Assembly (NCBI GenBank): GCA_013331935.1
Contig: DUFN01000017.1
Span: 32,099-77,569, forward strand
Reading direction: 5' to 3'
Length of the DNA: 45,471 nucleotides
Source of the DNA: Nanobdellota archaeon
GTDB lineage: Archaea; Nanobdellota; Nanobdellia; UBA10117
Part shown: positions 1-24,245 of the stretch, in pieces
Layout of the letters: every line of letters starts with the position of its first letter
How positions within the stretch are numbered: the stretch's first letter is position 1
Made by a program: the position numbers and the translations under genes
Notes under the pieces: model-generated
What the model was told of the DNA's origin: nothing
Database searches by the model: none
What the model saw: the letters and a program-made list of their open reading frames with translations, nothing else

Positions 1-503
1 TCCATTGCGGCGCGATAAGCCGCAGGATTACTACGATTGCTGCTAAAAATTAAGTGACCGTCATAACTTAGCCCACCATCATGTTTTTGTAGATCGGCGA
101 CATACGATTCGCAAAAAATATGTATAGTTTGATAAGGCAGGCTATTTCTGGAACTAATTGAAAATACCGTATCTTTTATGTACAAAGTATCGCCGATAGC
201 GTAGCCATCAATGCGCTCACAAGCCTCCGCGTCATTACCTTCATGATCGTGTTTGTGTTTAAGCGCGTAGTATTCTTTAAACGTCAAGTAGCGAGGTCCG
301 AATAAGTCTGGATTAATAGCGAATGTGATTCCCAATGCAGCAGCTATTGTACTGCCAATAGCCAGCCCGCCCATCAGCATAAACTGCCTTCGTGTAAACT
401 GCCTTGGCTGCGGTCGCGCAGTCTTTCTTTTCAAATCATCAAAATCTTCACTCGTTATGCGTTCCAAATCATCAAAATCCGCAACAGGCAGGGGAGATAC
501 CAT
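1..503 (-). CDS. Membrane-anchored exported protein with Tat-like N-terminus (C-terminus cut by window edge)
   Basis: At least 167 residues are visible and the frame stays open to the window edge, so the C-terminus is missing. An acidic N-terminal tail (about residues 8-25) is followed by RQFTRRQFMLMGG and a hydrophobic segment (about 39-62). The twin arginine followed by x-F-M resembles a Tat export signal, but could equally be a positive flank of a simple membrane anchor. The remainder (G-D-T-L-Y-I-K-D, then a T-I-H-I-F-C-E-S stretch) looks like a small beta-rich extracellular domain that I cannot name. A TATA-like TTTAAA at 524-529 lies about 24 nt upstream of the ATG, fitting leaderless expression and this start. 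It diverges from the pilin-like operon, so a surface role is plausible. The function is unknown. Confidence 0.7.
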   Translation of the reverse strand, partial: MVSPLPVADFDDLERITSEDFDDLKRKTARPQPRQFTRRQFMLMGGLAIGSTIAAALGITFAINPDLFGPRYLTFKEYYALKHKHDHEGNDAEACERIDGYAIGDTLYIKDTVFSISSRNSLPYQTIHIFCESYVADLQKHDGGLSYDGHLIFSSNRSNPAAYRAAM

Positions 504-577: not shown

Positions 578-2173
578 ATGGGCCACTCGAAGAAAGGAAT
601 TGTTGTAAATACTATAATTGCCATGGTAATGGCGGCGATTTTCATACTTGTTGCGGCGAGCGTAATTGGTGATTTTTTCAGCCAGTTTCCTAAAACAGAA
701 CCAATTGGCGATGCAACAAAAGTAGTTTGTTTCGGTGGCAGCAATAATAAATTATATTGTGTGAATAAAGAATCTGGCGCAGTAATCGTACCGTGGACGA
801 ATCCAACATCAGGCCCGCAGAGCAATCAAAAAATAACTCAAACGCCAGCTCTTACTGATAAAGGCATTTACTTCGCCGCAGGGTCTTATTTTTGCGGTGT
901 AAATATTGCAGGCGCGCAAAAATTCGAATGCGAGAAGTTTGGCAGGTCCATAGCTACTGGCGTTGTTGCAGATGAAAGCAAAGGCATTGCCTGCTTCGGA
1001 GATGGTGTAGATTATGCAGAGCGCACCATACATTGCCAAGATATAAGTACGGGCGAACAAAAATTCGCAGTTAGTGGTGATGACGCTGGTGGCGAATGTT
1101 CTTGGTGGTCAAAAGGATTGAAAAGCGCTGGCGATGATGGTACTGCACATGGCAGAAACGGCAAATATTTCGGTAAATATTTAGAAGTACGCACCAGTGC
1201 AACTTACGAAGATGCAGAGAAAGCTGCGGATGATTATTTTGGATACCAATGCGGCGGCGGTATGCTACACTATTCTAGTGACTGGTTTCCTTGTATTTTA
1301 CCAAAAAGCGACGATATGACTCATAGTAATGTGCACACAAAAGCCACACGTGGCTGTTACACTGCATCAACGCCAGTCTTTCAGAGCGGGACTGACTCGC
1401 TTTACTTCGGATTGGGCAATTACTTATGCGATGTTGATGCTGTGAAGTCACTTGGCACTAAACCAAATATAAATTGGTGCGCGAAGTTTGACTGGTCGCT
1501 TCCAAAAGGAAGTGCAGAAGGTGCAGGCCTTGTCTGCATTGAGGGCGGCAAAGACCATCGCGTGCATTGCATGGACTCTACAAAGCATGCAAATCCGCCA
1601 GATCAAGTAATACAAATAAAGTCCAGTGGAGAGGTAATGAAATATGCCTTGGCAATAGCAAAAGATAATAATAATAACAATGCAGATTTATTTTACGGCA
1701 TCGGAACAAAAGTTTGTGGACATCACCCGCAGATAGTTGGCAATGATTTGAAAACAGGTGACAACGATTTGTGGTGCAAAGACATGGAGCGCGATATCCC
1801 AACAGGCTTTGTAGCTGATGCGAATTATGTTTGCTTTGGCGATGGTCCTGGCAATAAAATCCACTGCCTGAATAGAATGAATGGTGTGGAAGCATTTAGC
1901 ATTACTTCTGGCGCATGGACTTCCAGAGCAGCGCAATCCACGCCGTTAATTCAAAATGATGTGCTTTACGCTGCACTTGGCGATTACGTCTGCGCTTATA
2001 AATTCCCATTTACTGCTGCGTACGCAAATAAAAATCTTGACAATGTGGGCGCAGGTGCAGGCAAGTACGATGTAGATAATGACCCAGACATAGTCTGGAA
2101 AAATGCATATCGCGGATGTGTTGATACTGGTGCAAATGAAAATATACCCACAGATATTGTTGGAGTAGCATGA
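578..2173 (+). CDS. Pilin-like N-terminus fused to cysteine-rich beta-propeller-like domain
   Basis: 531 residues, first gene of a five-gene operon. Residues 4-7 (SKKG) precede a hydrophobic helix (8-30), the layout of an archaeal class III (prepilin-type) signal. The rest resembles PQQ-type propeller blades. CFG...HC units recur at 51/61, 139/153, 320/331 and 419/430 with 9-13 residues between the cysteines. They alternate with L/I-Y-F/A-G-x-G/Y-x-x-C strands ending at C106, C284, C380 and C472. About 20 cysteines in a secreted domain imply disulfides between blade strands. A run of five Asn (365-369) comes from AAT/AAC repeats. The stop overlaps the next ATG (ATGA), indicating translational coupling. 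It is likely a surface-exposed adhesin or tip subunit. The propeller call is pattern-based and no ligand site is recognised. Confidence 0.65.
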   Translation: MGHSKKGIVVNTIIAMVMAAIFILVAASVIGDFFSQFPKTEPIGDATKVVCFGGSNNKLYCVNKESGAVIVPWTNPTSGPQSNQKITQTPALTDKGIYFAAGSYFCGVNIAGAQKFECEKFGRSIATGVVADESKGIACFGDGVDYAERTIHCQDISTGEQKFAVSGDDAGGECSWWSKGLKSAGDDGTAHGRNGKYFGKYLEVRTSATYEDAEKAADDYFGYQCGGGMLHYSSDWFPCILPKSDDMTHSNVHTKATRGCYTASTPVFQSGTDSLYFGLGNYLCDVDAVKSLGTKPNINWCAKFDWSLPKGSAEGAGLVCIEGGKDHRVHCMDSTKHANPPDQVIQIKSSGEVMKYALAIAKDNNNNNADLFYGIGTKVCGHHPQIVGNDLKTGDNDLWCKDMERDIPTGFVADANYVCFGDGPGNKIHCLNRMNGVEAFSITSGAWTSRAAQSTPLIQNDVLYAALGDYVCAYKFPFTAAYANKNLDNVGAGAGKYDVDNDPDIVWKNAYRGCVDTGANENIPTDIVGVA

Positions 2174-2643
2174 AATCAAAACGTGCAGTAACAGAGCCAG
2201 TATTAATTATTGGAGTTTTAGTAATAGCTGCAACAATGTTATTGTTAGGCACAACACGCGTTTTGGTGCCTTTGATTAAGACACAGTCTGAATTTTTGGC
2301 AAATGATATAGGGCTTACTGTTCATGCCGTTTACGCTGCGCCTGAAAATCTTAAGTATAATTTTGTGGCGAGCACGCCAAAAGGTAAAGATATCATGTAT
2401 GTTTTTTTCACGGCGTCTGATTTAAGAGAAACTCAAGTATATGATGGCGGGCCCACTCCTAAAAAATATGCAATCGTCAAAGACACAAAAATTAAGCAGA
2501 CTTTTGCAGATGGCGGGCTTAATGCTGTTGGATGGGTGACATACTATCCAGACAATATTAAAGGATTGTTCAGTATAAAAGTAATTAAAAAATGGGATGA
2601 AATTAACCAAAAAAATAGTGTTAAGTTTTGCAATAAGTGCTGA
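2170..2643 (+). CDS. Small pilin-like membrane-anchored subunit
   Basis: 157 residues, second gene of the operon. The start overlaps the stop of the gene before by four bases. The N-terminus MKSKRAVTEP is followed by a hydrophobic helix (about 11-36). K-R-A followed by V-T-E places an acidic residue at +3 if cleavage follows the Ala, comparable to the conserved acidic or glutamine residue of prepilins. The exposed part is about 120 residues of likely beta structure and ends in C-N-K-C. I know no specific family. The call rests on the shared N-terminal layout of all five operon members and the tight packing. Confidence 0.65.
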   Translation: MKSKRAVTEPVLIIGVLVIAATMLLLGTTRVLVPLIKTQSEFLANDIGLTVHAVYAAPENLKYNFVASTPKGKDIMYVFFTASDLRETQVYDGGPTPKKYAIVKDTKIKQTFADGGLNAVGWVTYYPDNIKGLFSIKVIKKWDEINQKNSVKFCNKC

Positions 2644-2645
2644 AA

Positions 2646-3143
2646 ATGAAACTAAAATCGAAAAAAGCAACAATGGAATGGCCATCCTTTCTCATATCAA
2701 GCATATTTTCTATGCTTTTGTTTATTATCGGCGTTTTTATGATTTTAAATGTGGCTAATGCTGGTAAAATCGATATAGACCCAAAATTAGACGCGCTGAA
2801 TTACGGACTGTTAGCTAGCAGAGTTCTTAACTCGGCAGACTGCCTCGCATGGGAAGAGAAAACGCCGGATGGATATCTAGTGCATGCAGGAGTGATTGAT
2901 GCTAATAAGCTTAGCAATAATGAAAATGTTAGAAACTGTATATTCGGAAAAAAATATTATATTTATGTCAGCATTCCTGGAAAGCCAGGCATGAGCGTAT
3001 CTGATGGTCTGGGTTTTGCAAATAACTTGCCCAGAATAGGAAATACTGCGGTAGATAAAAAATATTATGATTGGTTTGCAGTTAAAGTATTGGATTATGA
3101 TAATAACCTCCGAGCTGGTGTTGCAATGGTGGCAATAGTATGA
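2646..3143 (+). CDS. Small pilin-like membrane-anchored subunit
   Basis: 165 residues from the ATG at 2646. An in-frame GTG at 2637 would overlap the previous stop, and the ATG two bases after that stop is preferred. The N-terminus MKLKSKKATMEW precedes a hydrophobic helix (about 13-37). The exposed part contains L-L-A-S-R-V-L-N-S-A-D-C-L and, further on, G-V-I-D-A-N-K-L before N-C-I. This pattern looks like a conserved two-cysteine core and may be shared with small archaeal surface proteins, but I cannot name the family. ATGA overlap with the next gene. Pilin-like classification is inferred from the N-terminus and the operon. Confidence 0.65.
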   Translation: MKLKSKKATMEWPSFLISSIFSMLLFIIGVFMILNVANAGKIDIDPKLDALNYGLLASRVLNSADCLAWEEKTPDGYLVHAGVIDANKLSNNENVRNCIFGKKYYIYVSIPGKPGMSVSDGLGFANNLPRIGNTAVDKKYYDWFAVKVLDYDNNLRAGVAMVAIV

Positions 3144-3616
3144 GAAACAAAAAGGCAGTAATAGATATGCTTGTGGAATTCGTCATAGCAGTTGTTATAC
3201 TTTTAGTAGTGTGGCTGGTAATCAACGTTGCGCTGGCGCTACACGTTGGCGTTGACCAGGGCACTGTAAAGGCGAGATTGGAATCGCCGGACCAGTCGTT
3301 TGCCTGCAATTATTGGCTCATGAACTTTCTGCGCGCAGAAAATGAAGATGGAATTGTTTATTCGGATATTTTATCATGGGCAAAAAATGATGGCACTATG
3401 AAAACGAGATTTGTAACAGATGCAACTGCTTATTTTGAAAATAATTATCGCCGCGGTTATAATCTGCTGCGCTGGCAATTAAGCGCAGAAACGTCTGCAT
3501 CACAGCCAGTATTGAGCGTCGGCTATTCTGACAAGAAGCTGCCTCGCCAGTGCTCGCAGAAGATAGTTGTAAAAGGAGAACCGCCAATAAAGGTAACTCT
3601 GGGGGTCGATTACTGA
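3140..3616 (+). CDS. Small pilin-like membrane-anchored subunit
   Basis: 158 residues, fourth gene of the operon, starting inside the stop of its predecessor. The N-terminus MRNKKAVIDML leads into a long hydrophobic helix (about 9-34). N-K-K-A-V-I-D again shows basic-basic-Ala followed by an acidic residue at +3. The exposed part contains an A-C-N-Y-W-L-M-N-F-L-R segment and a C-S-Q-K motif near the end, so one disulfide is possible. No named family is recognised. The TGATG overlap with the next gene suggests coupled translation and a fixed subunit ratio. Confidence 0.65.
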   Translation: MRNKKAVIDMLVEFVIAVVILLVVWLVINVALALHVGVDQGTVKARLESPDQSFACNYWLMNFLRAENEDGIVYSDILSWAKNDGTMKTRFVTDATAYFENNYRRGYNLLRWQLSAETSASQPVLSVGYSDKKLPRQCSQKIVVKGEPPIKVTLGVDY

Positions 3617-4284
3617 TGCACGGGAAAAAAGCAATCCAGCAGTTGATTATAGTATTATTCATAATAATTGCAATTGGTGCGCTTTTGGTTGCTGGTGAAA
3701 GCACTAAAAATACAATTATAAAAATAGGCGACAGGCAATTTTTAATTCTTAATTCTTATCTTGAAGCTGAAAAAACCCGCGATTACTATACTCAAATCGC
3801 TAGATTAGCTGTGCAGGATACTGCAAAAGAGCTTGGAATGAATCTGCAGGCATGCATAATGGCAGACGGCTTTTCGAATAAATTTCCGGAAAAAGTAAGT
3901 AACTACGATATTAATTATGATTTGTCTTCAAATCCGCAGCTCACAGTGATTTCGCCAAGAGTTGTATGGTCTTTTGTAAAATATCCGGATGCGGCCAGCA
4001 TTTATGGCACGCCAGAAGACGTGGACCCGCGCATTACAGTGAGCGGAGAAAACTTCCAATATGATGCTGGGCTGTACGTAAGTTATACTTTCTGTGTTTC
4101 AAAGTGCGGTGATGGGCTGAAGCAAGGCACAGAGGAATGCGATATTGGTGACTTTGGAGCGAATGGCAATCTGTGTCAACAAGGCATTGGCCAAGGAAGC
4201 GGCGGGCAACAAGGCAGTGGCAATCAGCAAGCTAGACCGTTAAAATGTACTGCAGACTGCAAAATAGATTATAGTGTTTGTTAA
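3616..4284 (+). CDS. Pilin-like subunit with C-terminal cysteine-rich repeat
   Basis: 222 residues from the ATG at 3616, which overlaps the previous stop. The open frame extends upstream to 3550, but that part lies wholly inside the preceding gene. MHGKKAIQQ precedes a hydrophobic helix (about 7-29); a Gln after the Ala is typical of several archaeal prepilins. A helical region (about 30-75) resembles a pilin spine. The C-terminus carries C-G-D-G-L...E-E-C-D, the start of a Myxococcus-type/DUF4215 cysteine repeat, then a Gly/Gln-rich linker and a last C-x3-C...C group. The same repeat type occurs in the large surface protein at 18524-21400. Last gene of the operon; a convergent gene begins 25 nt later. 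Confidence 0.65.
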   Translation: MHGKKAIQQLIIVLFIIIAIGALLVAGESTKNTIIKIGDRQFLILNSYLEAEKTRDYYTQIARLAVQDTAKELGMNLQACIMADGFSNKFPEKVSNYDINYDLSSNPQLTVISPRVVWSFVKYPDAASIYGTPEDVDPRITVSGENFQYDAGLYVSYTFCVSKCGDGLKQGTEECDIGDFGANGNLCQQGIGQGSGGQQGSGNQQARPLKCTADCKIDYSVC

Positions 4285-5954: not shown

Positions 5955-6500
5955 ATGGCAAAATTGCGAGCAGCAAAATCATACCGAAGGGTAAAGAGGG
6001 CTTATGTTCGAACCAGCAAGCTCAGGAATAAGGCGTATGTAAAGGGCGCGCCAAACATAAGATTAGCCCAATATGATACAGGCAATCCCAACCAGAATTA
6101 CACTCACGAAATCCAAGTTATATCTACAAGGACAATACAAGTCAGGGACAATGCACTTGAGGCTGGCAGGCAAACAGCTGTAAGATACCTCGAAGTCCAT
6201 CTGGCAAAGGAAGGCTATTGGATGAAAACCCGCGCAGTCCCGCATCACATCCTAAGGGAAAACCCATTGGCAACTGGCGCAGGTGCAGATAGATTTTCGC
6301 AGGGAATGGCCCACAGCTTCGGCTCGCCTTACGGGCATGCTGCCCAGGTAAAGCCTGGCAGAATAATCTACACTTTCAGGGTTTTCAAGCACCAAATTCC
6401 ATTTGCCAAAGAAGCTGCAAGGAAGGCCAGCACAAAGATGCCGATGCACTGTATGATAAAAGTTTTTGATATGTCTACTGGCAAAGAGATTGTAGCTTAA
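5955..6500 (+). CDS. rpl10e: Large ribosomal subunit protein uL16 (L10e)
   Basis: 181 residues, the usual length of archaeal and eukaryotic L10e. The N-terminus (about residues 3-35, with R-R-V-K-R-A-Y) and the G-A-D-R-F-S-Q-G-M stretch (about 109-117) are characteristic, followed by G-R-I-I-Y-T-F-R-V. The protein lies near the A-site and peptidyl transferase centre on 23S rRNA. A CTTTAAAAAC box at 5925-5934 lies about 26 nt upstream, so the message is probably leaderless. It stands alone rather than in a ribosomal operon. Confidence 0.95.
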   Translation: MAKLRAAKSYRRVKRAYVRTSKLRNKAYVKGAPNIRLAQYDTGNPNQNYTHEIQVISTRTIQVRDNALEAGRQTAVRYLEVHLAKEGYWMKTRAVPHHILRENPLATGAGADRFSQGMAHSFGSPYGHAAQVKPGRIIYTFRVFKHQIPFAKEAARKASTKMPMHCMIKVFDMSTGKEIVA

Positions 6501-15133: not shown

Positions 15134-15658
15134 CTATTTGTTGAAGCTTCCTGATGCAGCAGTCTTGCCAGAGAAATCTATTGTAAATGAAATCCTTGAG
15201 CTGTTTGGCTGGCTTGAGATTGAACAGCTTGTGCCTGACAAGCTGAGGATAATCTGCCTTATCTGTCCAATTGAAATATCTGTTCCACAGCCAGACGCGC
15301 AGGTTGGATTAGTACTGCCGCCCCAGTTTGAGGAGCATATAGATTTCTGATTTGAATCGAAAACAATCCATTCTGTTGTCGGGTATGTTGTGCCTGCTGT
15401 TGTTGGAATCGGATTATTTCCTATATTTTGCGCATAAATAGTCAGGTTTTGAGCTGAATCGTTGTAGTTTGCTTTTAGAATCGCAATACTGGATGCTATG
15501 GTAGTTTGGAGCTTGCCTTGGTAGCTTTCGACCCCGCCCTGTTGCTGGCCCTGCACTCTTGTTATCCAATAAAACATCCCGCCTGCTGCGGCGACAACCA
15601 TCATTAGAATCAAAATAGTGGCAATTATTGGAGAGATTGCCCGCTTATTTGTGGCCAT
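15134..15658 (-). CDS. Archaeal type IV pilin
   Basis: 174 residues. M-A-T-N-K-R-A-I-S-P-I-I-A-T-I-L is the archaeal pilin N-terminal signature: a short basic leader, prepilin peptidase site around K-R-A, then a hydrophobic assembly helix (about 8-30). G-Q-Q-Q-G-G-V-E-S follows the helix. The head contains N-D-S and N-L-T N-glycosylation sequons and four cysteines (C-S-S-N-W, C-A-S-G-C, C-S-I-S). A paralogue lies at 17876-18421 with near-identical ends. It is divergent from a glycosyltransferase across 50 bases with a shared TATA box. Confidence 0.85.
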   Translation of the reverse strand: MATNKRAISPIIATILILMMVVAAAGGMFYWITRVQGQQQGGVESYQGKLQTTIASSIAILKANYNDSAQNLTIYAQNIGNNPIPTTAGTTYPTTEWIVFDSNQKSICSSNWGGSTNPTCASGCGTDISIGQIRQIILSLSGTSCSISSQPNSSRISFTIDFSGKTAASGSFNK

Positions 15659-18523: not shown

Positions 18524-21400
18524 ATGGCCCTGAGTAAGAAAGCATCATTTACTGTTGCAGTAATACTTTTCATTCTCATCAGCTCAGTTGGTTTTTTGGG
18601 TTATTCTTTGCAAGGGAAAGGTTTGGCAGGGCTGACTGGGGCCGCAGTCAATTTGCCAAATCATGTAACCTGTACGGCTGGCCAAGGTTATGGTTTTGAA
18701 GTGGCACCGCCTGCAACTACTGCGCACACAATAACAGCGAGCGATAATATTGTGTGCCAGTCAAATGCACTGGGTCTTAGGACTACTGCTCTATTAACAA
18801 ACAGCAAATTAGATCCAATGAATTGTTTTACTCAAACATATAATCCTTACGGCGTACAGCTTTCCCCAGGCAAATATTATTTTTGCGTAAAGATAATTGC
18901 ATCACAGCGTTATTTTTTAATGGAATATAATCTCGGCGATACTATTAGTTTTGATTGGGCAGAACAAATACCTATTCAAATACCAACTTGTACAGACGTA
19001 GATAGCGATGGCTATGGCGCCAGGGGGACTGATTTATCTGTGTGTGCTGGCAGTGCCACTGTTGCAGATTGCAATGATGCAGATACGAGTATTAGTCCAA
19101 GTGCGCAGGAATACTGCGATGGAAAAGATAATAATTGTGATAATTTAGCAGATGAAGGCGGAGTCTGTGATACGATTCAGAACTGCGGTGCTTATGGCAA
19201 TACGTGCCCAACAGATCCAAATGGTGCGCCGATGTGCACGAATGGTGTTTGCAGTTTGATTTGTAATTCAGGCTATAACTTACAAGATGGTGCGTGTGTT
19301 CCTGATATTCCAGCCTGCGTGCCTGCAGCAGAAATCTGCGGAGATGAGATAGATCAGGACTGCGATGGCGCTGACCTGGCCTGCGCAACATGCACAGATA
19401 AAGATGGCGATGGCTATGGTTCTGTAGGTACTGATTTATCTGTTTGCACTGGCTCAATAGCTATTGCTGACTGTGATGATAATTCAGCCAGTATGAATCC
19501 AGGCGTGCCAGAACTCTGTGATGGTTTAGATAACAATTGCGATGCCAATACAGATGAAGGTGGCGTCTGCAATGGTAATGATTTGAATAATTGCGGTTCT
19601 TTTGGCGCGGTGTGTGCTGGCGATGCCTGCATAAGCGGTGTTTGCATGACATCGCAGGCTTGCTATACAGGGCCAACTAGCACGGAAGGTGTTGGTTCGT
19701 GCAAGGCAGGCACTAAGTTATGCGCTTCAGATGGCACTTGCGGAGTTTGCGTTGGTGAAGTTTTGCCAGTAACTGCCGGATTTAGCTGCATTAATCAAGA
19801 AGCAGATGTAAATTGCAATAGCCAGAAAGATTATTTGGAAGACGCTTGCACACCCGCCTGTCCAGAAGGCACTATTTTCGATAACATACTAAAAGAATGT
19901 ATCGCGCCAATAGCGCCAATACAGTGCGGCAATAATATTATTGAAACAGGCGAGCAATGTGATGATGGCAACATAGCAAGCGGAGATGGATGTTCTGCAA
20001 CCTGCCAGACAGAAGCGCCAGCCTGCATACCTATGGCTGAAGTTTGTGATGGTATCGATAATGATTGTAATGATTTAACAGATGAAGGTGGAGTCTGTGA
20101 TACAATTCAGAATTGCGGAACTTATGGCAATGCCTGCCCCGCAAATCCAAATAGCTACGCTATATGCACAGAAGGTGTTTGTGGAAAGGCGTGCGGAGAT
20201 GGCTATGAATTAGTTGAAGGCGTTTGCAATTCCTTGTGCGGAAATGGCGTAATTAATGCAGATGAGCAATGCGACGGGACAAACCTAAATGAAAAAACCT
20301 GCGCAAATTATGTTGAAGGTAGTACAGGAACACTCATTTGTAATGCGGACTGCACAGTTGGCACTGCAAGTTGCAGTGTGAATTTCTGGGCGCAGGGTGC
20401 AGAAGTTTCAGGCGAAGCAAATAGCAGATTATTTACAGAATATAAATTTAAGGCAAAACAGCGAATCAATTCTCCGCAATTGTCATTTTCATCGCTTGAT
20501 GCAAAACCAGAAACTGCGCCTGCGCAGGATAATGTTTATAAATACGAAGCAGTGTTGCTGACAAATTTTGCAGATGCAGATTTAGAAAATGTCGCACTTA
20601 AGTTTGCAGTAGAAAAGAGCTGGCTAGCAAGCAATAACTTAGATGAGTCGAAAGTTAAGCTAAACCGTTTGGAAAATGAGGTGTGGGCGTCTTATGATGC
20701 GACTATAGTCAGCGAAGATGATACAAATATAATTTATTCCGCAAACCTGCCAGGGTTATCAACTTATTCTGTAACATCAGAACCCTTGCCAAGCCAGCCA
20801 TCCGCAGCTGATGAGGGCGGAGGTGCTTCGGCCAGTGACAGTTCATCTGGCGGAGGAGGCTCATCTAGCGGTAGTTCTGGAGGTGGAGGCGGAGGAAGCT
20901 ATAGTTCTGGCGGAATCATGCAGAATGTTTTATCATCCGCAGTGGCGGGAAATGGCATTTGCGAGAAGGGAGAATCTGCTGCAAACGTCTGCTCAGACTG
21001 CTCATGCGCATCAGGCTATGCCTGCACAGATGATGGCTGCGCATTAGCTTCTTTAAATAAGGTTTCATCACAAACAGACAACATGGTAAAAGACGCAAAA
21101 TTGCCAAATAAGCTGTTTGGCAGTAAAACCCATTTCAAAGTTCCAGGAATATTAGCAGGCTTGGGAGGATTAACTGTGCTAATTATTTTGGCAGGCTTTA
21201 TTAAATCACACAAAAGAAATGCTACGAAAACAACAACGCAAGAATCAGTGCAGCCAGAGCCAAAACACAAATCAAGTGGTTTAAAATCATACGTGGCTAA
21301 AGAATTAGCAGAGGGCTACTCCAAAGACAAAGTAAAAGAAAGATTGGCAGAGGCGGGCTGGCCTGAAGATAAAATTGACAGCGCTTTTAAGAGCAAGTAA
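18524..21400 (+). CDS. Large cysteine-rich surface protein with MopE-type repeats and cytoplasmic helical tail
   Basis: 958 residues. N-terminal helix (about 8-28) then L-A-G-L-T-G; a small beta domain (45-148); metal-binding MopE-type units with D-x-D-x-D-G-Y, D-C-x-D and E-x-C-D-G-x-D-N-x-C-D at 158-212, 290-346 and, in part, 506-521; DUF4215-like C-G-x-x-x-I...E-Q-C-D units at 468-494 and 572-586; a PGF-pre-PGF-like beta domain (about 668-752); a Gly/Ser linker (764-797); a last cysteine cluster (813-839); a membrane helix (874-894); and a cytoplasmic tail ending in one E-L-A-E-G-Y-S...A-G-W-P-E-D repeat (922-955). The D-rich loops should bind calcium. It is probably a cell-envelope protein anchored at both ends. 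TATA-like box at 18488-18500. Confidence 0.8.
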   Translation: MALSKKASFTVAVILFILISSVGFLGYSLQGKGLAGLTGAAVNLPNHVTCTAGQGYGFEVAPPATTAHTITASDNIVCQSNALGLRTTALLTNSKLDPMNCFTQTYNPYGVQLSPGKYYFCVKIIASQRYFLMEYNLGDTISFDWAEQIPIQIPTCTDVDSDGYGARGTDLSVCAGSATVADCNDADTSISPSAQEYCDGKDNNCDNLADEGGVCDTIQNCGAYGNTCPTDPNGAPMCTNGVCSLICNSGYNLQDGACVPDIPACVPAAEICGDEIDQDCDGADLACATCTDKDGDGYGSVGTDLSVCTGSIAIADCDDNSASMNPGVPELCDGLDNNCDANTDEGGVCNGNDLNNCGSFGAVCAGDACISGVCMTSQACYTGPTSTEGVGSCKAGTKLCASDGTCGVCVGEVLPVTAGFSCINQEADVNCNSQKDYLEDACTPACPEGTIFDNILKECIAPIAPIQCGNNIIETGEQCDDGNIASGDGCSATCQTEAPACIPMAEVCDGIDNDCNDLTDEGGVCDTIQNCGTYGNACPANPNSYAICTEGVCGKACGDGYELVEGVCNSLCGNGVINADEQCDGTNLNEKTCANYVEGSTGTLICNADCTVGTASCSVNFWAQGAEVSGEANSRLFTEYKFKAKQRINSPQLSFSSLDAKPETAPAQDNVYKYEAVLLTNFADADLENVALKFAVEKSWLASNNLDESKVKLNRLENEVWASYDATIVSEDDTNIIYSANLPGLSTYSVTSEPLPSQPSAADEGGGASASDSSSGGGGSSSGSSGGGGGGSYSSGGIMQNVLSSAVAGNGICEKGESAANVCSDCSCASGYACTDDGCALASLNKVSSQTDNMVKDAKLPNKLFGSKTHFKVPGILAGLGGLTVLIILAGFIKSHKRNATKTTTQESVQPEPKHKSSGLKSYVAKELAEGYSKDKVKERLAEAGWPEDKIDSAFKSK

Positions 21401-21443
21401 GTAAAGATTTATATATGCAAATATAGAAAATCTAGCGAGGATA

Positions 21444-24245
21444 ATGGCCACAAAAAAGACATCTTTGAAGTTAGACTTACCTATTGTTTTAACTATTGCA
21501 GTAGTGGCGGTTGCAGTTATTATTTTAGTAGCTACTGCGCCAAGTGCCAATACTGCTAAATTTTACGAAGCAGGGACTTGTAATTATCCAATACAGTCAG
21601 AATGCCAAGCAGTTGCAGGTTGCACGTGGACTCCGCAATGTGCTGGCTTTGCAACACCATGCGGTTTCATACGTGATGCCACTTCGTGCGGAAATCAATT
21701 TGGATGCACGTGGGATGCAACGAGTTCTGAATGCACTGGCACGGCCGCAACATGCCCGCAACTAACTAACAATGAATACTGCGCGTACCAAACAACAACA
21801 GAGTTAGATTTGAGTGCGGGATATTGCAAAGTAGCTGGTGATTGCAGTGGCACGCCTACAAAAATAGCAATAATCCGCACTAATGCCGAATTAATTTCAA
21901 TTCCTCTATTGCCTTTAGAGTATGTTAAACTTCTTTCAGCAGATATAACTTGGACTACATCTAAAAAAGCCACATCAAAAGTAGAATATGGATTTAGCAA
22001 AGATAATCTAAATCTGCAAAATAGTTTAAATCTGCAGGCCGATGGCAACAACGCAGTAGAACATAAAGTTCGCCTGCCAGAGCTCGGCAGAAATGCAATT
22101 TATTATTACAAAATAACTTCCTGCGCAGAGGCAGATAATTGCGCATCATCAGATGTTTTAAGTTTCCCCACGCCAAATCAAGCGTGCTTTGGTAAGGTTA
22201 ATTTAGAAATGCCGAATCCAATTGCAAGAAATGAACGCGTAACTGCAAAAATAAAAGAAGGGCCTGCAGATGGCGGGCTGAATTTTGCATGCGAAGGCAA
22301 GACTGCTTATTTGAAAGAAAACAATTGCAATGGAAATACGATAACTTCTGCGCAAATAACTGCATTTGGCAATGCGAGTTTGGTTTTCACCGCGCCAAGC
22401 ACTCCAAATACGTATCTTTATGGGGCTTGCGTGGACAAAGATGCAAATAATAATTTTAATGACGATGGCGAACAGTCCGCGGGGCAATCAGTCGTTGTGT
22501 CTGCCTGCATCCGCGCGCAATCGGAACTTACTGTAACGCCAATAACGATTGACGCTGGCAGGGGCGAGACTGCAAGGTACACAATTACTGTGAAAAACAA
22601 AAACACCTGCGCAGCTGAATTTGAACTTAGTCTGGTAGATTGCCCCGCACCAGCATGGAACTGCACATTCGAGCCAAAAACAATAGTAATTCCAAAAGCT
22701 TCTGAAGGAACAGCAGTCTTAAACGTTAAATCTGCATCAACTGCCGGTTTAGATACTGATAAGTCTTTCAGCATTACTGCAGTAGATTTGGCAAGTGATA
22801 ATGCAGATAGCATGACATCGAGCCCAGTCGTAGTGCATTACATACCTTCCATTTGTTCAAGGCAGGCTCCAGAAGTTATAGCACCTGATGCGCAGGCTGT
22901 CCTGCTTGGCGGTTCAGCAACTTATGAATTCACAATCAAAAATCAAGATAGCTGTATCTCCACTTATGCATTGTCAGCTAACTGTCCTTCTGGATTGGCA
23001 TGCAGTTTGAACTCGAACTCAACAACTCTTGAAAGCGGAGGGGAAAGCAAGGCAAGTATTGTTGTGGCTTCGCAGAATAACACGAGCCCGAATAGTTATG
23101 CAGTAATTCTTTCAGCCACAAGTTCCGCAGACAGCAAATTTGTTGGCAAGGGCACAGTAAACCACAAAATAAAGGCATGCGCAGACAAAGATTTTGATGG
23201 CTATTATGCGAATGGCGGGGCATGCGGAGAAGTGGACTGCGATGATTCCAGTGCAAGCGTAAACCCTGGCGTCATAACTGAAGAAATAAACGGCAAAGAT
23301 GATAATTGTGATGGACGCCTTGATACTTTAGAAGCAGATGAAGATGGGGATGGCATTACAGTTGCAGATGGCGACTGCGATGATATGAGTGAAAAAGTAA
23401 ATCCAACTGCTGCAGAAATCTGCACAGACAACATAGATAATAATTGCAAGCCAGAAGACGACACTGCTTGTGATGGTGCCGCAGATAATACTATTACAAA
23501 AGACATGCTAAACCCAGATAGCTCGCTCACGCCAGGCGATAATAATGGAATTTCAGATCAAGTATTTCAAGGAGAAGGGCCTGATGGCGGAACATTAGAA
23601 GCAGGTGCAGAAGTAAAAAAAAGCGGGTTTAGCGTTTACCTATCAATACCAATCGCATTGATTTTAGCAGTGATTGGATTGGTTTATAAATTTTACATTA
23701 AGCCGAGGAGAGAATTAGCAAACACAGCAGAGATGCAGGACCTCGGCCCAGAATCGAACCTGCAGGATGCGCAGAACTTCGTAAATGAAGGCCTCGCAGA
23801 AGGAGCAGGCCAGCCGGAAATACATCAGAGCCTTGCAGACGCAGGAGTTCCGCAGGCAAAAATCGAGAAGGCATTGAAATTCTCAGCAGACGACATGGCC
23901 GAGCTGGACAACAAGGCAAAGAAAAGAAAGCTGGATGAGACACAGGAATATTCTGCTGGCAAAAAATATGTAGCAGACATGGCAAATGAAGGCTACGCGC
24001 CAGTGCAGATAAAGACTGCCTTGACTAATGCAGGCTGGCCAGAAGACCTAATTGAGAAGCTGATAGGTTTAGAAGTAAAAGATGACATGGCAGACCTGGC
24101 AAAAAAGTACGGCGCAGATAAAGTCGGCAACAAGGCAGACCTAAAGAAATTCATAAGGGCTGCGATAAGGGCAGGCCATACAAAGAAGTCAATCAAGCAA
24201 TCATTAAAGAAGTTCGGCTGGGATTATGTTAGTGTGAATTTCTAA
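21444..24245 (+). CDS. Large surface protein with fibronectin-like, MopE-type and cytoplasmic repeat domains
   Basis: 933 residues. N-terminal helix (about 12-33); a cysteine-rich module (45-135, with repeated C-T-W); a fibronectin III-like domain (about 150-240, W-T-T-S-K-K-A-T-S-K-V-E-Y-G); an extracellular beta domain (248-355) and two conjugate-type domains (358-465 and 478-575); MopE-type units (579-623 and 630-670); a membrane helix (about 728-750); then about 180 cytoplasmic residues with three copies of a helical repeat (777-812, 840-876, 899-926), the middle one ending A-G-W-P-E-D. It has its own TATA-like ATTTATATAT about 32 nt upstream plus GCGAGG before the ATG. Clearly related in plan to the 958-residue neighbour. 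Confidence 0.8.
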   Translation: MATKKTSLKLDLPIVLTIAVVAVAVIILVATAPSANTAKFYEAGTCNYPIQSECQAVAGCTWTPQCAGFATPCGFIRDATSCGNQFGCTWDATSSECTGTAATCPQLTNNEYCAYQTTTELDLSAGYCKVAGDCSGTPTKIAIIRTNAELISIPLLPLEYVKLLSADITWTTSKKATSKVEYGFSKDNLNLQNSLNLQADGNNAVEHKVRLPELGRNAIYYYKITSCAEADNCASSDVLSFPTPNQACFGKVNLEMPNPIARNERVTAKIKEGPADGGLNFACEGKTAYLKENNCNGNTITSAQITAFGNASLVFTAPSTPNTYLYGACVDKDANNNFNDDGEQSAGQSVVVSACIRAQSELTVTPITIDAGRGETARYTITVKNKNTCAAEFELSLVDCPAPAWNCTFEPKTIVIPKASEGTAVLNVKSASTAGLDTDKSFSITAVDLASDNADSMTSSPVVVHYIPSICSRQAPEVIAPDAQAVLLGGSATYEFTIKNQDSCISTYALSANCPSGLACSLNSNSTTLESGGESKASIVVASQNNTSPNSYAVILSATSSADSKFVGKGTVNHKIKACADKDFDGYYANGGACGEVDCDDSSASVNPGVITEEINGKDDNCDGRLDTLEADEDGDGITVADGDCDDMSEKVNPTAAEICTDNIDNNCKPEDDTACDGAADNTITKDMLNPDSSLTPGDNNGISDQVFQGEGPDGGTLEAGAEVKKSGFSVYLSIPIALILAVIGLVYKFYIKPRRELANTAEMQDLGPESNLQDAQNFVNEGLAEGAGQPEIHQSLADAGVPQAKIEKALKFSADDMAELDNKAKKRKLDETQEYSAGKKYVADMANEGYAPVQIKTALTNAGWPEDLIEKLIGLEVKDDMADLAKKYGADKVGNKADLKKFIRAAIRAGHTKKSIKQSLKKFGWDYVSVNF

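Follow-up and report, generated by a model that had tools for sequence, protein, structure and literature searches.

A probable minor-pilin cassette with a candidate propeller adhesin in a Woesearchaeota-like archaeon

Described pilus systems and the P1-P5 locus

In bacteria, the HIJK minor pilins are located at the filament tip, where they are capped by PilY1 (PMC10191384), and in TM7x, an ultrasmall episymbiont of the Saccharibacteria, deletion of the propeller-bearing minor pilin PilX2 lowers host binding (PMC12206443). In archaea, a 2016 census of type IV pili distinguished clades 1-4 and made no mention of Woesearchaeota (PMC4858521), and pilus islands whose pilins could not be classified were described for DPANN archaea in 2019 (Makarova, Wolf and Koonin, PMC6393860, Fig. 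2A). Here we analyse P1-P5, five consecutive genes encoding pilin-like proteins at positions 578-4284 of a 45,471-nucleotide stretch of DNA (the window; G000:C10:32099-77569), which lies within the 769-kb draft genome, 88% complete, of a Woesearchaeota-like DPANN archaeon, a tiny and probably host-dependent organism. The locus is best read as a minor-pilin cassette, conserved among relatives, that belongs to a type IV pilus system which is divergent yet still recognisable: P1-P5 probably initiate or tip a type IV pilus-like filament, with a propeller pilin serving as the adhesin.

The HIJK set and PilC/PilY1 of type IVa pili and type II secretion systems resemble the locus in layout, with four small minor pilins in conserved order and one large propeller-bearing partner forming a proposed tip set. 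No sequence similarity to P1-P5 is detectable, however, so that the likeness is not one of demonstrated homology, and PilY1/PilC is not a pilin, whereas in P1 the propeller is joined directly to a pilin helix of class III. PilX2, likewise a minor pilin with a C-terminal beta-propeller, is the closest functional precedent for P1, as an analogue rather than a demonstrated homologue; it differs in being bacterial, in its RCC1-type seven-bladed propeller and in lacking a predicted PilD site, whereas P1 has a canonical class III site and an apparent propeller of the BamB/PQQ type.

Among archaeal systems, those of the 2016 census and the archaellum share with the locus class III prepilins, a FlaI/TadA-type ATPase, a TadC-like platform and an A24 peptidase. 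The locus ATPase differs by its size of about 750 residues, with long additional N- and C-terminal parts, and by a score far under the cut-off of the FlaI model (117 bits against 550), and no archaellin is seen at the locus. An archaellum was rejected on the basis of this score and of the lack of an archaellin match among P1-P5 (ArlH was not searched for). The DPANN islands are alike in that FlaI/TadC-type genes stand beside many unclassified signal-peptide genes predicted as diverse pilins, and those of Fig. 2A possibly overlap with the present locus; the passages devoted to them give examples and a general prediction, and do not define the P2-P5 order, a propeller pilin or how widely the ATPase occurs in the class (PMC6393860). 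An earlier reading made from the letters of the window (the sequence-only reading) had suggested a possibly undescribed surface structure, which is too strong, since such islands have been on record since 2019. For the conserved P2-P5 cassette with a propeller pilin in front, we found no description in open-access PMC text.

Layout and conservation of the operon

The five genes of the operon are as follows, a slash marking the predicted cleavage site:

P1, 578..2173, + strand: propeller-bearing class III prepilin, 531 residues, SKKG/IVVNTIIA...; candidate tip adhesin
P2, 2170..2643, + strand: small minor prepilin, 157 residues, SKRA/VTEPVLII...; overlaps P1 by 4 bases
P3, 2646..3143, + strand: small minor prepilin, 165 residues, SKKA/TMEWPSFL...; conserved Cys pair; 2-base gap after P2
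P4, 3140..3616, + strand: small minor prepilin, 158 residues, NKKA/VIDMLVEF...; conserved Cys pair; overlaps P3 by 4 bases
P5, 3616..4284, + strand: minor prepilin, 222 residues, GKKA/IQQLIIVL...; Cys-rich DUF4215-like C-terminal tail; overlaps P4 by 1 base

An alternative start is possible for P3 (GTG at 2637), and a longer P5 starting from GTG at 3550 is unlikely. Because the junctions overlap or nearly abut, they suggest a single translationally linked operon. The sequence-only reading had singled out this run of genes for its tight joins and for a basic-basic-Ala/Gly motif with a hydrophobic helix at every N-terminus. Coordinates and joins were reproduced, and an uncharged hydrophobic helix directly follows each of the five sites. 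A class III caller consisting of one fixed simple pattern, not a trained predictor, was applied to the 60 non-overlapping open reading frames (ORFs) of at least 80 residues in the window; it retained eight, namely P1-P5 in a row and 3 of the 55 others, which are pilins at 15134 and 17876 and a large surface protein at 18524.

Loss of the basic-Ala/Gly site in homologues had been named as evidence against the pilin reading; the site is preserved in nearly all P1-P5 orthologues, the exceptions being P3 in one genus (2 genomes) and in L018, and P2 in L015, which has NKSG. On the grounds of site density in the window and conservation in orthologues, a chance run of signal-like N-termini was rejected. 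In HIJK sets, one capping subunit is without the acidic residue close to the mature N-terminus; here an acidic residue (D or E) was found within positions +1 to +8 in 11 of 12 cases for P4 and 3 of 13 for P5, the other subunits being mixed, as judged with a crude site caller. P3 copies without a leader were found at L014:3010-3483 (-), L015:1346-1876 (-) and L018:3796-4302 (+). In one genus a stop codon lies a short way upstream of the MEWP with which the leaderless protein begins, as though the protein were produced in trimmed form; a frameshift artefact was rejected as the cause, as no leader is present in the upstream frames in the two genomes of this genus.

Conservation was assessed in 188 genomes of the class, with P3 and P5 searched separately. 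The P2-P5 profiles derive from few and diverged sequences, so that absence from a genome is weak evidence, and draft assemblies break loci, leaving many matches to P3 and to the assembly ATPase (described below) on separate contigs. The ATPase family is present in 187 of the 188 genomes, and the named records matched in a scan with its alignment are mostly 'Candidatus Woesearchaeota'. P3 has a profile match in 87 genomes, with one listed place per genome, P4 in 49 (several matches being weak) and P5 in 40. Both P3 and P5 are matched in 24 genomes; in 23 of these P5 lies 0.4-1.5 kb after P3, on the strand of P3, and in the remaining genome the two are on different contigs. Thirty genomes have P3 and the best ATPase match on a shared contig, and in 28 of them P3 lies on the strand of the ATPase, 5-27 kb downstream. 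In the loci as read, P4 lies between P3 and P5 and a P2-type gene stands in front. A search for the same gene order in related genomes, as the sequence-only reading had advised, thus finds P2-P3-P4-P5 across several families, the propeller gene being restricted to this family and one sister family. From order, spacing, ATPase linkage and spread in the class, we conclude that P2-P5 are a fixed module of a class-wide machine, of which the large first subunit varies.

Strong P1 matches occur in 7 of the 188 genomes: the window genome, five others of the same family and one of the sister family. The orthologue is immediately upstream of P2 in G001, G003, G004 and G006, and one ORF upstream of it in G010. 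Where P1 is present, P2 measures 133-161 residues; an unrelated insertion can bring it to 253-674 residues in other families and, within the same family, in G002. Enlarged P2 genes are found at L017:9517-11538, L049:12597-14621, L053:16059-17882 and L058:535-2280 (-). Their insertion spans several hundred residues, the N- and C-terminal parts of P2 being retained, and P1 is undetected in those genomes. We considered the long P2 as a relocated propeller and rejected it, there being no similarity between the two.

The arrangement of these genes also bears on an alternative in which P2-P5 are minor pilins scattered along the filament, or subunits swapped according to conditions. Many alternative pilins are common in archaeal genomes (PMC4858521), and further pilin-like genes follow P5 in G002, G003 and G004; a strict order with one copy of each gene per genome, as far as the profiles detect, nevertheless fits a defined complex better, and this alternative is the least probable of those we considered.

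Assembly machinery and two sets of pilins

Absence of an assembly ATPase and a platform protein from the window, as noted in the sequence-only reading, is correct for the window itself, but the operon is not stand-alone: both genes lie 12-15 kb upstream of P1-P5, on the same contig and strand, outside the window. Several class III pilin-like ORFs stand between these machinery genes and the operon. The features concerned are the following:

C10:14957-17191, + (operon strand): FlaI/TadA-type ATPase, 744 residues, PF00437 above cut-off
C10:17271-18397 (L045:9272-10398): MNT/HEPN pair, between the ATPase and platform genes
C10:18632-20695, + (operon strand): platform protein, 687 residues, profile match to a TadB-like platform
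C10:23169-24506, +: three small KKAQGLP/KRAQGLP pilins, the second and third 63% identical
Contig C10, upstream of the operon, + (operon strand): two large class III-type ORFs, 650 and 495 residues
L046:1899-3290, L050:3570-4737 and L147:1-812: examples, in relatives, of the small membrane protein and coiled-coil genes discussed below

The nearest solved structures to the ATPase are GspE/FlaI-type and CpaF-type ATPases. The platform protein of the window genome has no Pfam match, and weak T2SSF matches appear in two relatives; its N-terminal half aligns with the TadB-like platform of a second pilus system on contig C6 (probability 91%, 215 columns), and the match of its C-terminal half is not significant. 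A single PF01478 prepilin peptidase was detected in the genome, above cut-off, on contig C17, with both catalytic aspartate motifs, FDIKDR (xxD) and GGGD (GxGD). The peptidase and the PilB/PilC-type genes for which a search had been proposed are thus all present in the genome.

In many relatives the ATPase gene and two divergent coiled-coil genes have as neighbours a pair of small membrane proteins, similar to each other and about 190 residues long, which are candidates for additional machine parts. In-frame inteins with LAGLIDADG endonuclease domains interrupt the ATPase in L142, L143 and L144 (G118, G086 and G032); the insertion lies close to Walker A in G118 and at about alignment position 550 in G086, and G032 apparently has an intein at each of these sites. 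The MNT nucleotidyltransferase and HEPN pair resembles a type VII toxin-antitoxin system and was not seen between the ATPase and platform genes in the relatives read.

The system on contig C6 is more canonical, with a 596-residue ATPase, two T2SSF proteins and pilins; its ATPase is 27% identical to the locus ATPase over 323 residues. The pilins at 15134 and 17876, which the sequence-only reading had offered as major subunits for P1-P5, are 51% and 45% identical to C6 pilins and show no meaningful similarity to the one KKAQGLP pilin compared. They therefore most likely belong, by sequence, to the C6 system, and we rejected them as major subunits of the P1-P5 system.

The small KKAQGLP pilins also help in weighing another possibility, that P1-P5 are pseudopilins of a device similar to the type II secretion system, with a short filament whose tip pushes or selects an exported protein. 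This would agree with loci that carry a number of unrelated pilins, every one as a single gene, and with the use of the bacterial HIJK complex in both secretion and pili (PMC10191384). Yet the upstream pilins, being small and of one family, suit major subunits, a large propeller fused to a helix resembles a binding module, and a conserved cargo gene did not stand out in the loci read, secreted enzymes not having been searched for systematically. We consider secretion unlikely.

The propeller pilin and the proposed tip complex

A 500-residue propeller had been listed among the exposed domains of the five proteins. In the window copy of P1, PQQ_2 gives a weak Pfam match under the cut-off, and the same domain is significant in P1 orthologues of the same family. 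An AlphaFold2 model (mean pLDDT 57, pTM 0.60) displays an N-terminal helix followed by repeated beta strands; built from two sequences only, it is of low confidence, enough to give the class of propeller though neither its blade count nor its sites. The PDB entries that it matches best are BamB propellers (E about 4e-12; TM-score, by target length, 0.67), and a CFG...HC-like motif occurs four times in the sequence. P1 thus carries a BamB/PQQ-type propeller, as far as a low-confidence model indicates, and by analogy is a candidate adhesin.

The exposed domains of the other subunits had been described as mutually unrelated. This holds for the pairs tested: in profile comparisons among P2, P3, P4 and P5, no alignment extends beyond about 35 columns, which correspond essentially to the N-terminal segment. 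None of the four has a significant or believable match in Pfam or NCBIfam, a PDB sequence search covering P3, P4 and P5 returned no match, and the structure model of P3 is of low confidence and without significant fold match. A Cys pair is retained in nearly all P3 members and likewise in nearly all P4 members. The Cys-rich tail that had been noticed on one gene is indeed present in P5, where it resembles a weak DUF4215 repeat, but is missing from the aligned P5 orthologues.

A tip complex of minor pilins or pseudopilins, as originally suggested, remains the best reading of P1-P5, the peptidase, ATPase, platform and conserved order having all been found. Processing, complex formation and filament growth would then proceed as follows. 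Each precursor would be inserted in the membrane and its basic leader removed after Ala/Gly by the prepilin peptidase. P2-P5 would pack against one another by their N-terminal helices to form a priming complex over the 687-residue platform, which P1 would join or cap, exposing its BamB-like propeller. The 744-residue ATPase would power the addition of major pilins beneath the tip, for which the small upstream KKAQGLP pilins are the best candidates, pushing the propeller outward. The propeller may bind a ligand on a surface, plausibly that of the host cell, along with additional parts like the P5 tail rich in Cys.

Several points weigh against this scheme. No fold is recognisable in the globular parts of P2-P5, so that homology to known tip pilins is not established; the leader is absent from some P3 copies; and P2-P5 profiles are missing from part of the ATPase-bearing genomes (matches in 87 of 188 for P3 and 40 of 188 for P5), through divergence or true absence. 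To go from a tip complex to an adhesin, and on to host binding, is to argue by analogy, and the tip position is likewise a prediction.

Class III leaders are also found on archaeal surface proteins that are not pilins, such as the sugar-binding proteins of Sulfolobus. P1-P5 could accordingly be peptidase-cleaved, membrane-anchored surface proteins that do not polymerise, forming a bindosome-like or S-layer-associated patch into which the ATPase aids insertion. NCBIfam bindosome models do match the ordinary pilins of the window and the locus ATPase, but weakly and far under cut-off. Against such a patch, none of P1-P5 matches BasA or BasE, a binding-protein fold was not found in the small proteins P2-P5, and their genes are linked to those of a platform protein and of small candidate major pilins; we regard it as distinctly improbable. 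The bindosome (Bas) itself was rejected, as P1-P5 have no match and the ATPase scores 49 bits against a cut-off of 1000.

A wider proposal may be put forward tentatively, as possible rather than probable: the ATPase, the fused platform, the paired small membrane proteins, the paired coiled-coil proteins and P2-P5 might represent a separate class-wide type IV filament lineage in Woesearchaeota-type DPANN archaea. Filaments of this lineage, which would serve to recognise host cells, would have a four-part tip complex of their own and a large first subunit open to exchange (the propeller pilin here, an enlarged P2 in other families). The tip reading, if true, would turn 'many unclassified pilins' into a defined, expressible and testable tip complex, and would provide an archaeal parallel to the propeller pilin of Saccharibacteria, two unrelated ultrasmall groups having arrived at the same solution. 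Its importance lies in the breadth of the ATPase in the sampled DPANN class, in a testable candidate adhesin and in four linked minor pilins.

Other genes in and around the locus deserve mention. At window positions 18524-24245 (+) are two large Cys-rich surface-type proteins, the first with a KKA-type N-terminus and with repeats like the Cys-rich tail of P5. Genes with twin-arginine-like signals, at window positions 3-503 (-) and at C10 about 21930-22437 (-), flank the upstream pilin genes and are alike by eye; the second copy contains unknown bases. A calcineurin-like (metallophosphatase-like) gene of 967 residues lies on the minus strand inside the pilin locus, at C10:29000-31903 (-) (L020:9001-11904), and its position is occupied by other minus-strand genes in some relatives; together with a minus-strand gene that has a twin-arginine-like start, it separates the upstream pilin genes from the operon. 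A uL16/L10e ribosomal protein gene lies downstream of P5 (window 5955-6500, +); it does so in several relatives as well (L012, L013, L016 and L053), often with a phosphoenolpyruvate synthase-like gene behind it, and marks a conserved boundary of the locus.

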